From NCBI RefSeq assembly GCF_000353285.1, contig NZ_KB731324.1:1010577-1074576 (forward strand): DNA of 64,000 bases, given 5' to 3'. The notes beneath the pieces were generated by a model that was not told the origin of the DNA, made no database searches, and saw nothing but the letters and a program-made list of their open reading frames with translations. Numbering within the stretch: position 1 is the first letter of the stretch; the number at the start of each line of letters is the position of its first letter. This document shows, piece by piece, positions 11,049 through 14,528 of this stretch. The position numbers were made by a program, and so were the translations under genes. Source of the stretch: Leptolyngbya boryana PCC 6306. Lineage in GTDB: Bacteria > Cyanobacteriota > Cyanobacteriia > Leptolyngbyales > Leptolyngbyaceae.

Positions 11049-12233
11049 TCAATCATGGGTTAGCCCTTTTAGTTTGATGTCTGCATTTAGCCCTTTGCTC
11101 TGAATCAAAACCTCAAATCCACCTAATCCCATTGGATTCATCAGTTGATGCAATGCGTCGCGGCGCTGCAATCGATTTTGTAAATCCTCGCTACTGGTCG
11201 GTTCGGTGAGAGTCAATTGCGATAATCGATCGCCCAAGCCTAACGCCATTAAAAATAAACCTTGCTGAGTTAATCCCACAGTCTGCAATCCTGACAATTC
11301 TCCCTGTAATTGCAGCGCCGTGAAATTCACATGAGCCGTAATATCTTGTTCTCCCACATATATATATGGATCGTTGTGATGGCTATGTTGGTAGTAGCAT
11401 TGCAATGTTCCCCCTGATCGCATAGGATTGTAATACCGCGTCGCTGAATATCCATAGTCGATCGTTAAAACGAACCCAGATTTTAGCCGTTTCGCAATCG
11501 CATCCATCCAATCGAGCGCAGCTAAATTGACTTCGGTTCGATATCCCTCTGCATAGCCAGAAACATCAACGCCCACAAACTCAAAATACTTCGCTAATCT
11601 CTCGCTTGAAAGCTCAGCGATCGTTTCACTGAATCTGTTATCGATGAGTTCAACATAAATTTCTTTCAGTTGATGATCCTGAACCGTCACCAAATGTACT
11701 GGAAAGGCATCGACTAATTCGTTGGAAAAGAAACATCCCACGATCGACGATTCTGGAATATTCTCGATCGTCGTCCAATCAATACGTGCGCCTTTTTCAA
11801 TCCAACGTCCTAATCGCTGCCGCTGTTCAATCACATGGGCTGCCGACTTCTCAAGGATTAAATAAGACAGCGCAGAAAAACAATCTAAATCTCGGCGCTC
11901 TAGATATCGCAAAATATCCACAGCCAGCAATCCTTGACCCGCACCCATTTCCACTACAGTGAATGGATTCGGCTGACCCAAGACCTGCCACATGTCGATC
12001 AACTGTTCCGCCAGCAATTCCCCAAAATCAAAAGACAAATGGGACGAAGTGAAAAAATCACCCTTCGCCCCAATTTTCTCGCGCTGTCGCGTGTAATAGC
12101 CCAATTGCGGGCAATACAGCGCAAGATCCATAAATTCGGCAAACGTTAACCGTGAACATCCGCGAATTCGCTGCGATATTAAATTGTAAAGAGGACTCGA
12201 CTCGTCCAAAGATTGATTGTCCTGAGCAAACAC
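11049..12233 (-). CDS. MidA/NDUFAF7-family SAM-dependent methyltransferase
   Basis: This 394-residue class I methyltransferase of the DUF185/MidA family has its SAM site at about residues 93-106 (VVEMGAGQGLLAVDIL). Before it come YYTRQREKIGAKGDFFTS and SFDFGELLAEQL, both typical of the family. The mitochondrial homologue NDUFAF7 dimethylates an arginine of the 49-kDa subunit (NDUFS2) of complex I. The cyanobacterial relative of that subunit, NdhH, is encoded about 1.1 kb away on the same strand. The substrate here is unproven. Confidence 0.9.
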   Translation of the reverse strand: MFAQDNQSLDESSPLYNLISQRIRGCSRLTFAEFMDLALYCPQLGYYTRQREKIGAKGDFFTSSHLSFDFGELLAEQLIDMWQVLGQPNPFTVVEMGAGQGLLAVDILRYLERRDLDCFSALSYLILEKSAAHVIEQRQRLGRWIEKGARIDWTTIENIPESSIVGCFFSNELVDAFPVHLVTVQDHQLKEIYVELIDNRFSETIAELSSERLAKYFEFVGVDVSGYAEGYRTEVNLAALDWMDAIAKRLKSGFVLTIDYGYSATRYYNPMRSGGTLQCYYQHSHHNDPYIYVGEQDITAHVNFTALQLQGELSGLQTVGLTQQGLFLMALGLGDRLSQLTLTEPTSSEDLQNRLQRRDALHQLMNPMGLGGFEVLIQSKGLNADIKLKGLTHD

Positions 12234-12400
12234 AATTCACCTGAATACTAGAAACGATCGTCTTTCACTCTATTGCATTTTTTAGCTGGCTACAGTAGAG
12301 TATCTGTACTAAATCGCTATCTAAACTGAAATCTAGGATTCAGGAAGGAGGGATGCACGTCCACTAAAAATCAAAAACTGCACCACACTCCGCCTAGGGT

Positions 12401-12619
12401 TTACGCTTTTGCCAAAGCAGGTTCTTCTGCTGCGACATTCGTTGTAGCCTGCGGAGCATCAAATGCTACGATGAACTTCGCGTTTGGACGGGTCTGAGTC
12501 AGAACCTTCAAATACGAATCTGCATCGTTACGACGACGGAACCGAATGACAACCTGACGTTGGAGGTCAGAAGTCAACTGATATACAACCCAGGGAGTTA
12601 GCTGCTCTTGGTACTTCAT
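12401..12619 (-). CDS. Small conserved cyanobacterial protein
   Basis: This 72-residue protein reads as KYQEQLTPWVVYQL then QRQVVIRFRRRNDADSYL and NAKFIVAFD. The beta-alpha-beta look and the basic RFRRRND patch suggest a small folded domain like those of SPOR or ferredoxin-like type, but no family is certain. The last 20 residues are alanine-rich and probably disordered. It stands alone on the minus strand between the MidA-type gene and ndhH. Confidence 0.7.
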   Translation of the reverse strand: MKYQEQLTPWVVYQLTSDLQRQVVIRFRRRNDADSYLKVLTQTRPNAKFIVAFDAPQATTNVAAEEPALAKA

Positions 12620-13290
12620 AATTCAACCGTGGAGAATAAGGGCGTTACAAGAAATGAACAATCACTCGAATTAAGCTTAAGATCCGGTTTTGGAGAGAAA
12701 CGCTACATCTAGGGGTCGCGCTTCAGTTCACATACTATTGATAGCGTCTAAGTTGAAAAAAGTCAATCTTTTTGCTGCAAGAGCGTCTGTCCGTGCATTC
12801 GCTCAGTGTTATTGCTGAAATTGGCGGACGAGTGGCTAGAATGGAGCACCATTTCACAGCAGAGTAGGCAAAGTAGAAAAATCTCCTACTTTAGTCGAAT
12901 AGCCAAACGCTCTCACAGAAGTATAGATTGTTAATTCAGATACGCTACAAATTCTACGAAACTCCTCGATCGAATCCTTGAACTCATTAGAGTGCTGCGA
13001 GCCATAGAATCGCCTGAAATACATCCCTGAAAGCTACTCCAGCATACGCACTAGCTGAGTCTCTAGCAGGAATATCCGTATACAGACGAAAATAAAGTCA
13101 CGCTTCTCAAACAATATCCAGCACTGAGCTGTTGACGGAAACTGATTTTGGGTTGCCTCCGTGTGAGCACAGAACGAGATTAAAAAAAGTTTATTGAAAG
13201 CTTAAAATCTAGCCGCAACTCATACTAGCTTAAAATGAAGCATTTGAGGACATCATGTTGTGTTTTATCAAACGCGATACAGAATGCAAC
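12620..13290. other. Long noncoding stretch upstream of the small minus-strand gene
   Basis: About 670 bases contain no convincing gene. It holds small hairpins, including AAAGTAG/CTACTTT at 12870-12892 and a possible long-range GTCCG/CGGAC stem at about 12790-12832. A small RNA is possible, but no known family was recognised and no terminator-like end is clear. Confidence 0.35.
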
Positions 13291-13316
13291 AAAAAAGGCA
13301 GGTTCGTTACCTGCCT
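13291..13316 (-). terminator. Intrinsic terminator of ndhH
   Basis: Perfect 8-bp stem AGGCAGGT/ACCTGCCT (13296-13303 and 13309-13316) with a 5-base loop. Read on the minus strand it is followed by six T residues, 28 bases after the ndhH stop codon. Confidence 0.85.
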
Positions 13317-13343
13317 GGAGTTGATGAGGTCTGGGCAAGGAGT

Positions 13344-14528
13344 TTAGCGATCGACTGATCCCATAATGATGTCGATACTACCGAGAATCGTAACGATATC
13401 TGCCACCTTCATGCCCTTGACCAAGTAGGGGAGAATCTGCACGTTGTTGAAGTCTGCTGCCCGAACTTTGAAGCGCCACGGGAAGATATGATCCTCTCCC
13501 ATGATGAAGACACCCAATTCGCCTTTGCCGCTTTCGAGTCGAACGTAGTGTTCTCCTTTGGGGATCTTGAATGTCGGTGCGATCTTCTTACCAATGAATT
13601 GATAATCGGGTCCATTCCAGTCAGATTTGGGACCTTCGAGCATCCGCTTCGCTTCCAAATTCTCAAATGGTCCACCTGGCAAGCCTTTAATTGCTTGTCT
13701 GATGATTTTGACGGACTCACGCATTTCGCGAATCCGCACTAGGTAACGCGCAAAGCAATCTCCTGCGGTTTCCCAATGCACATCCCAATCTAGCTCGTCA
13801 TAGCGCTCGTATTTGTCAACTTTCCGCAAGTCCCAGTTCACGCCAGAGGCGCGCAGCATTGGACCGGATAAGCTCCAGTTAATAGCATCTTCGCGAGTGA
13901 TGACTCCAATACCATCGACACGACGACGGAAGATTGGATTATCAGTAATCAGCTTCTCGTATTCATCGACTTTCGGCATGAAATAGTCGCAGAAGTCTAA
14001 GCACTTATCCACCCAACCGTACGGCAGATCCGCAGCAACACCGCCGATTCTAAAGTAGTTGTGGTTAACCATGCGGTAGCCTGTTGCTGCTTCCCACAGG
14101 TCGTAGATCAGTTCGCGTTCGCGGAAGATGTAGAAGAAAGGAGTTTGTGCGCCGACATCTGCCATAAACGGACCAAGCCACAGGAGGTGATTTGCGATCC
14201 GGTTCAATTCCAGCATGATCATCCGGATGTAGCTGGCGCGTTTCGGAACGGGGATCCCAGCGAGTTGTTCGGGAGCATTGACCGTGATGGCTTCGTTGAA
14301 CATGCCTGCCGCGTAGTCCCAACGGCTAACATAAGGCACGAACATAATGTTGGTACGGTTTTCGGCGATTTTCTCCATGCCGCGATGAAGATAGCCAATG
14401 ACAGGTTCGCAATCGACCACGTTCTCGCCGTCGAGCGTGACGATTAAGCGCATTACCCCGTGCATGGAGGGGTGATGCGGACCCATGTTGAGAACCATGG
14501 GTTCTGTTTTGGTTTCGATCATTGCCAT
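13344..14528 (-). CDS. ndhH: NAD(P)H-quinone oxidoreductase subunit H
   Basis: NdhH is the 49-kDa-type subunit of the photosynthetic NDH-1 complex in the thylakoid membrane, next to the quinone site. It works in respiration, cyclic electron flow and CO2 uptake. The 394 residues show [16 protein letters not shown] (13-28), [15 protein letters not shown] (45-59) and the C-terminal [19 protein letters not shown]49 in YLHRG aligns with the arginine methylated by NDUFAF7 in mammals. The gene is transcribed alone and ends in a strong terminator. Confidence 0.97.

Follow-up and report, generated by a model that had tools for sequence, protein, structure and literature searches.

A single arginine in a core subunit of cyanobacterial photosynthetic complex I is probably methylated by a relative of NDUFAF7, an assembly factor of human mitochondria. 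The reason is that midA, the gene for this relative, tends to be retained or lost along with the recognition site and to lie close to it in the genome. We put the probability that MidA dimethylates Arg49 of NdhH, beside cluster N2 and during NDH-1 assembly, at about 0.8. The window is the whole 64,000-nucleotide stretch of Leptolyngbya boryana PCC 6306 that was analysed, and the relevant features are listed here in window positions:

11049–12233, minus strand: midA, 394 amino acids, GTG start; a MidA/NDUFAF7-family class I SAM-dependent methyltransferase, proposed to act on protein arginine
12401–12619, minus strand: 72-amino-acid gene between ndhH and midA, without a Pfam or NCBIfam match at E ≤ 0.001
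13316–13296, minus strand: terminator-like hairpin with a T-run, immediately following ndhH; 8 pairs, 5 of them G-C, then TTTTTGTTGC; a consensus match only
13344–14528, minus strand: ndhH, 394 amino acids; 49-kDa subunit of NDH-1 (photosynthetic complex I), the proposed substrate
14379–14381, minus strand: codon of NdhH Gly50, retained wherever a MidA-positive genome could be read; genomes without MidA mostly have Ser or Ala here
14382–14384, minus strand: codon of NdhH Arg49, the proposed methylation site, read from sequence; equivalent of NDUFS2 Arg85

The enzyme and its proposed substrate

The 11049–12233 gene is a cyanobacterial MidA by both family and fold. In a profile search, its product scores 241.5 bits against Methyltransf_28 (PF02636; curated cut-off 23.3) and covers positions 1–248 of 249, in effect the entire profile, as expected of a member of the MidA/NDUFAF7 family (PF02636, COG1565). 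It is the sole PF02636 match at E ≤ 0.001 in the genome. Its sequence relatives in the PDB are 4f3n, 1zkd and 5ztz (Dictyostelium MidA), and its AlphaFold model (pLDDT 87.9) compares with 5ztz and 5zu0 at Z 38.8 and with 4g67 at Z 40.5. The five family chains listed span Z 36.8–40.5, and the next fold scores 16.3. An alignment of 24 MidA proteins shows no variation at E95, G97, G99 and G101, the residues of the class I SAM-binding glycine motif, which we take to be the SAM site. The title of the 4g67 entry names a bound S-adenosyl ligand. Arginine methyltransferase activity on the HRG motif is what we propose for this protein.

The ndhH product scores 830 bits against the NdhH equivalog NF005649 (cut-off 583) and 781.6 bits against the NdhH chain 6hum_H. 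It reads GYLHRGMEK, i.e., Arg followed by Gly, leaving the HRG motif of an NDUFAF7-type substrate intact. A first-pass annotation of this DNA had pointed to the retained target arginine, and R49 is indeed present. However, Arg49 occurs in all 194 NdhH copies read from the class, including those of MidA-less genomes, so it is not diagnostic and we dropped it as evidence for a pairing with MidA.

Several known systems bear on the proposal. In mammals, NDUFAF7 is reported to methylate Arg85 of NDUFS2 (PMC3829151). The cyanobacterial pair resembles this system and Dictyostelium MidA in family and fold, and in having an orthologous complex I subunit with the HRG motif. It differs in that the proposed target is NdhH of photosynthetic NDH-1, with the modification putative, and in that several cyanobacterial lineages are without MidA, their motif being mostly HRS or HRA. 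The closest solved structures by sequence and fold are the COG1565/DUF185 entries 4g67, 4f3n (Burkholderia thailandensis) and 1zkd (Rhodopseudomonas palustris), whose titles name no substrate. Among bacteria, Arg65 of Paracoccus denitrificans Nqo4, the equivalent site, is reported to be dimethylated (PMC3750175; PMC11522691); that complex I is a respiratory enzyme. In E. coli NuoCD, the equivalent Arg249 is conserved as in NdhH but is described as unmodified by mass spectrometry (PMC3750175), and the E. coli control genome gave no PF02636 match. An unmodified arginine in a genome without MidA is therefore, on that report, a known state.

We infer the occurrence, symmetry, timing and effect of the methylation as follows. 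With S-adenosylmethionine as donor, MidA would dimethylate Arg49 in the HRG motif of NdhH, symmetrically by analogy with NDUFAF7 and NDUFS2, and would do so before NdhH enters the complex. Once modified, the side chain would pack near cluster N2 at the NdhH–NdhK interface, next to the plastoquinone site, where it may favour assembly or tune N2.

Co-occurrence of MidA and the Arg-Gly motif

MidA and Arg-Gly tend to be present or lost together. Our survey of the cyanobacterial class covered 388 genomes, with MidA in 348 and ndhH but no MidA in 39. HRG NdhH was read in 345 of the 348; the other three are unreadable drafts, with no ndhH found in G295 and G242 and a truncated ndhH in G317. Two MidA-positive genomes that the HRG pattern missed (G129 and G312) read HRGVEK. 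Gly50 is absent from 33 of the 39 MidA-less genomes (31 HRS and 2 HRA). Two seeming counterexamples with MidA and HRS, G201 and G211, were set aside: in each, a second, HRG copy adjoins midA. HRG is kept without MidA in six class genomes (Pseudanabaenaceae G213, G324, G329 and G334; drafts G336 and G387), and HRGFEK NuoD occurs without full-length MidA in seven relatives outside the class (G001, G004, G010, G018, G026, G032 and G035), so the link is one-directional. A prediction set beforehand held in all three readable genomes; no ndhH was found in the G493 draft.

A 194-genome sample of the phylum gave a PF00346 match in all 93 genomes with full-length MidA (counting G005, where the gene is broken and the match partial) and MidA in none of the 60 genomes without PF00346. 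Three further PF02636 matches, all in one family (f30), are partial (23–35 bits). Just three of 14 control genomes gave a MidA match (Caulobacter, Synechococcus elongatus and Haloferax), and each of them is PF00346-positive. One genome that has neither gene, G046, was considered as a co-loss. The 19-kb region of a congener gave one 595-bp end and short scattered matches there, so this is a regional deletion or an assembly gap and is left out of the co-loss count.

Linkage of midA with complex I genes

In the window, the ndhH and midA ORFs lie on the minus strand 1,110 bp apart, midA downstream, and are transcribed in the order ndhH, 72-amino-acid gene, midA. This is the arrangement described in the first-pass annotation: a MidA-type gene near ndhH on the same strand, with one tiny gene between. 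The proximity is real but makes a weaker argument than was stated there, because the terminator-like hairpin and T-run separate the genes, and ndhH and midA are here probably not one transcript. The region holds 6 terminator-like sites against 3.2 expected from shuffles. Given the hairpin and an adjacency seen in only part of the genomes, we dropped the operon argument for the window. Among the other loci compared, relatives of the 72-amino-acid gene occur at six (L110, L143, L166, L167, L170 and L199), all of which except L167 also contain midA.

Across genomes, midA–ndhH proximity exceeds chance, and midA is associated with the gene for the 49-kDa subunit by co-occurrence and, in part of the genomes, by linkage. 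The annotation had suggested a survey of gene distance. Where the phylum sample has both domain matches on one contig, they lie within 3 kb in 13 of 56 genomes, always on the same strand (these are related genomes, not independent cases), and further apart in 43. All four Gloeobacter-type (g115) genomes carry two ndhH copies: an HRG copy with midA at most ~100 bp upstream of it, and a second that is HRS or HRA. In G437, 8 bp separate the linked ORFs. G029, a non-photosynthetic relative, has the order midA-nuoA-nuoB-nuoC-nuoD, with midA heading the cluster. In G237, midA is distant from both ndhH copies.

Residue 50 against the rest of NdhH

For a comparison across columns we used NdhH from 148 MidA-positive and 37 MidA-less genomes, with 2 drafts set aside. 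Gly50 is present in 148/148 of the former versus 4/37 of the latter. In all, 138 columns are conserved throughout the MidA-positive genomes, and of these column 50 shows the most frequent loss in genomes lacking MidA. The stronger claim that it separates best of all 394 columns was dropped on recount, since at least 12 others have a larger raw contrast (e.g., column 113, 146/148 versus 0/37). Those columns follow lineage, and the same reading is possible for column 50. However, they fail in early-branching MidA-positive genomes (G237, G490, G492, G171, G203 and others), where column 50 holds. At 7 of 8 diagnostic columns, G237 NdhH agrees with the backbone seen in MidA-less genomes, yet it keeps Gly50. 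We also rejected the idea that NdhH comprises two ancient paralogue types of which only one goes with MidA, because G237 and G490 combine the other backbone with MidA. In a tree built without column 50, the NdhH group with that backbone is a grade. Spinach plastid NdhH carries HRG on the backbone of the MidA-less group.

Alternative explanations

It is quite unlikely, but worth weighing, that MidA was lost and residue 50 changed on the same few branches by chance, and that the proximity is old synteny. The MidA-less genomes are clumped (28 of 40 in family f26 and 7 in f17), and the better raw contrast of other columns favours such a clade effect. The RpoB tree has 4 changes of MidA presence, at least 3 of them forced, which speaks against such an effect. 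Supported branches give 3 independent pairs, of which 2.8 on average go the same way and 0 the opposite way (p 0.25), a test that with 3 pairs cannot reach p 0.05; the reverse test has 5 pairs, 3 going the same way and 2 without a difference. Also against a clade effect stand the failure of the better-separating columns in the early-branching genomes and the occurrence of both Ser and Ala at residue 50. The MidA-less members of f26 show S, A and G there, a mix that relaxed constraint would be expected to produce. Separate evidence comes from the linkage seen in G029 and the Gloeobacter-type genomes.

A slightly smaller chance goes to MidA acting on another protein, RNA or DNA, with an indirect association with NDH-1. 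Wolbachia MidA is reported in a 2025 paper to be capable of methylating adenine and cytosine (PMC12455994), and in most of the sampled cyanobacteria midA and ndhH are not neighbours. A different substrate would nevertheless leave three things unexplained: a glycine beside the known target arginine that all 148 sampled genomes with MidA retain and genomes without it have mostly lost, the placement of midA next to the HRG copy in all four Gloeobacter-type genomes, each of which also has an HRS or HRA copy, and the midA-nuoABCD order of G029. Least probable of all, we think, is that MidA is mainly a non-catalytic chaperone that binds the HRG loop of NdhH, methylation being incidental or absent in cyanobacteria. 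NDUFAF7 is described as an assembly factor and Dictyostelium MidA as interacting with NDUFS2 (PMC3829151), and what the comparative evidence indicates is that the loop is recognized, rather than any chemistry. The invariant glycine motif and the S-adenosyl ligand of 4g67 speak for catalysis, however, as does a report that a methyltransferase-deficient Dictyostelium mutant fails to rescue the knock-out (PMC9006661). The enzyme–substrate pairing of MidA and NdhH put forward in the first-pass annotation is partly supported: it gains from the Gly50 pattern, the position of midA beside the HRG copy and the midA-nuoABCD cluster, and the annotation's own two arguments lose force through the invariance of the arginine, its unmodified state in E. 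coli and the hairpin in the window.

Significance

Our search of open-licence PubMed Central literature found nothing relevant on cyanobacterial MidA or NdhH methylation, and the terms "methylat" and "dimethyl" are absent from the main text of the NDH complex structure papers checked. Since Paracoccus denitrificans already provides one bacterial case of the modification, the novelty would lie in its occurring in photosynthetic NDH-1. More tentatively, and we consider this wider reading somewhat doubtful, Arg49 methylation may form a switchable layer within photosynthetic complex I. On that view, residue 50 would report the methylation, HRG would have decayed repeatedly to HRS or HRA after loss of MidA, and Gloeobacter would run two NDH-1 forms, one methylated (the HRG copy, beside midA) and one unmethylated (the HRS or HRA copy).

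If this reading is true, spinach plastid NdhH may be methylated by an NDUFAF7-type enzyme of the host. The role of methylation near N2 was left open by a Yarrowia study because the arginine itself was changed; the study names suppression of the methylase as a way forward (PMC8042128). Cyanobacteria would offer a simple bacterial system for that role, in which lineages have lost MidA naturally and the two ndhH copies of Gloeobacter-type genomes form a natural control. A disease-relevant modification of mitochondrial complex I assembly would also extend to the NDH-1 of oxygenic photosynthesis, the complex that serves cyclic electron flow and CO2 uptake.

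Locus and gene family

Three minus-strand genes are considered here, in order of transcription:

14528-13344, minus strand: ndhH, first, with an NdhH equivalog match
12619-12401, minus strand: a 72-codon gene, second, with no Pfam or NCBIfam match
12233-11049, minus strand: a methyltransferase gene (midA, 394 aa), third, with the MidA domain PF02636

The first-pass annotation had described midA as close to ndhH on the same strand with one tiny gene between, and this arrangement is confirmed, as is its placing of Arg49 (R49) in GYLHRGMEK, residues 45-53 of the window NdhH. A terminator-like hairpin with a T-run lies directly 3' of ndhH, so ndhH and midA are probably separate transcripts. 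Relatives of the 72-codon gene occur at six fetched loci (L110, L143, L166, L167, L170 and L199), five of which also have midA.

The methyltransferase matches Methyltransf_28 (PF02636) at 241.5 bits and is the only match to this domain in the 7.26-Mb genome. Its solved sequence relatives are 4f3n, 1zkd and Dictyostelium MidA (5ztz), and its AlphaFold model (pLDDT 87.9) matches the five listed MidA/COG1565 chains at Z 36.8-40.5, with the next fold at Z 16.3. The same genome has a second ndhH (L370 4856-6037; contig C1, ~5.169 Mb) that is more diverged (75% identity), of the WDYYGGMFNE type and with HRG (Arg49 followed by Gly50) kept. Two HRG copies are found in eight of the sampled MidA-positive genomes, among them this one.

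Co-occurrence and linkage of MidA and NdhH

PF02636 is matched in 96 of the 194 genomes of our phylum sample, 93 times at full length and three times partially and weakly (all in family f30). All 93 genomes with the full-length match also match PF00346, the 49-kDa subunit domain (partially in G005, where the gene is broken over contig ends), and MidA was found in none of the 60 phylum-sample genomes without PF00346. In the control set, the genomes of E. coli and Thermus composti carry PF00346 without PF02636, and those of Caulobacter, Synechococcus elongatus and Haloferax volcanii carry the two together.

Within the class Cyanobacteriia (388 genomes), MidA is present in 348 and absent from 40, namely 28 of family f26 (which includes Pseudanabaena), seven of f17, and G226, G229, G336, G387 and G046. 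The NdhH of f17 is 92-95% identical to that of Gloeomargarita loci, and by its sequence the family is presumably Gloeomargarita. All but one of the 40 retain ndhH. The exception, G046 (3.76 Mb, rated 99% complete), has neither ndhH nor midA and, near 3.696 Mb of its contig C1 (L112, L219), is without nearly all of a 19-kb neighbourhood present in its congener G437, through deletion or an assembly gap.

A survey of gene distance had also been proposed, and it bears out proximity only in part. Of the 93 phylum genomes with full-length MidA, 92 gave coordinates for both genes (G005 was left out), and in 56 the two genes share a contig; the domain matches lie ≤3 kb apart, always on the same strand, in 13 of these 56 and further apart in 43. 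Eleven of the close pairs, from families f1, f4, f7 and f11 of the class, run ndhH-midA; the other two, from f32 outside it, have midA first. The gap can be very short (8 bp between the ORFs in G437, a few bases between the ndhH end and midA in G005). In G029, which is not of the class, midA comes immediately before nuoA-nuoB-nuoC-nuoD; G021 has it ahead of a nuoB-containing ORF and nuoD. Among 80 named loci, a biased draw chosen by similarity to HRS-type (Ser50) NdhH and with flanks often cut by contig ends, midA is in the flank of 13/64 HRG loci (same strand in 13/13) and 0/16 HRS loci.

All four genomes of genus g115, which we take to be Gloeobacter (G201, G211, G219 and G491), have midA at most ~100 bp upstream of an HRG copy of ndhH, and their second copy, elsewhere in the genome, is HRS in three and HRA (Ala50) in one. 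G229, from the same family, has an HRS copy only and no MidA. The two ndhH genes of g115 are clearly different (L093, L094, L394, L397), the copy without adjoining midA having a one-codon deletion at position 155. In G237, presumably Anthocerotibacter, midA is far from both ndhH copies.

Association of residue 50 with MidA

The first-pass annotation had noted that NdhH keeps the target arginine. Taken alone this says little about MidA: R49 is invariant in 194/194 NdhH copies from the class, with or without MidA. The following residue does vary. An HRGMEK DNA pattern is found in 349 of the 388 class genomes, i.e., 343/348 with MidA and 6/40 without. The five MidA-positive genomes it misses are two with HRGVEK, which keeps G50, and three unreadable drafts; G50 is present in 345/348, the other three being those drafts. 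The 39 MidA-less genomes with ndhH comprise 31 HRS, two HRA and six HRG, the last being four Pseudanabaenaceae and the drafts G336 and G387, both from families in which MidA is otherwise present.

With these two drafts set aside, our sequence set (148 MidA-positive and 37 MidA-less genomes) has G50 in 148/148 vs 4/37 (Fisher p 2e-32, phylogeny ignored). Every MidA-positive genome of the set keeps 138 of the 394 NdhH columns. Of these 138, column 50 shows the most frequent loss in MidA-less genomes, 11% of which keep it, followed by column 120 with 22%. A larger raw contrast between the two sets is seen at 12 or more other columns (e.g., column 113, 146/148 vs 0/37). These better-separating columns follow lineage, because they break down in early-branching MidA-positive genomes (e.g., G237, G490, G492, G171 and G203).

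Clade effects are a possible, though less likely, source of the MidA/G50 association itself. In an RpoB tree built from 28 genomes (INDEPENDENCE), the MidA label changes four times (gains or losses), at least three of them forced by well-supported branches: at G229 inside f43 (which includes Gloeobacterales ES-bin-313), at G226 beside f25 (which we take to be Thermostichus), at f17 and at f26. Supported branches gave three independent pairs, of which a mean of 2.8 had the motif changing the same way and none had it changing the opposite way (p 0.25, with p 0.05 out of reach for so few pairs); in the reverse direction, three of five pairs went the same way and two had no difference. MidA-positive G237 has residues of the MidA-less group at 7/8 diagnostic columns, yet G at column 50. 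Its relative G490 has G50 in both ndhH copies, matching a prediction written beforehand; G491 and G492 also matched, and G493 has no ndhH to read. In an NdhH tree made without column 50, the MidA-less backbone is a grade, not a clade.

Two further observations concern these proteins. Spinach plastid NdhH (9grx chain H) has the backbone residues of the MidA-less group and the codon deletion, with HRG kept. G219 has, besides its normal rpoB, a second diverged RpoB-like open frame of 1090 codons (C1 1777011-1779614), pieces of which score below the rpoB cut-off.

Proposed mechanism and alternatives

NDUFAF7 modifies NDUFS2 Arg85 while complex I is assembled (PMC3829151), and by analogy MidA probably modifies NdhH Arg49. 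PMC3750175 reports the site as dimethylated by mass spectrometry in the bovine, human, Pichia and Paracoccus enzymes, unmodified by the same method in E. coli, and occupied by Thr in Thermus thermophilus; it also gives Arg-Gly as the context of most methylated arginines. The G50 pattern fits an Arg-Gly-preferring methylase. Once MidA is gone, position 50 would be at liberty to drift to Ser or Ala, and Arg49 would stay because it is needed near N2; in Yarrowia the Arg is 3.7 Å from N2 and the cluster is lost on its mutation (PMC8042128).

MidA could possibly act instead as a chaperone without chemistry. It could also possibly have a substrate other than NdhH: Wolbachia MidA is reported, in PMC12455994, to methylate DNA bases, and the residue-50 pattern is what would need a separate account. 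Modification of Arg49 is the reading we prefer.

The claim that such a modification would be new for cyanobacteria holds as far as the open-licence literature goes, our search of which returned nothing relevant on cyanobacterial MidA or NdhH methylation. The words methylat/dimethyl are absent from the main texts of two structure papers on cyanobacterial NDH-1 and of one on spinach NDH, and a 2024 paper (PMC11522691) gives this dimethyl-arginine as not reported in bacteria besides Paracoccus. The type of modification is already known. As far as searched, it is new that MidA and Arg-Gly are repeatedly absent together and that Gloeobacter-type genomes have the two-copy arrangement, and the proposed extension of this modification to photosynthetic NDH-1 would be new as well.
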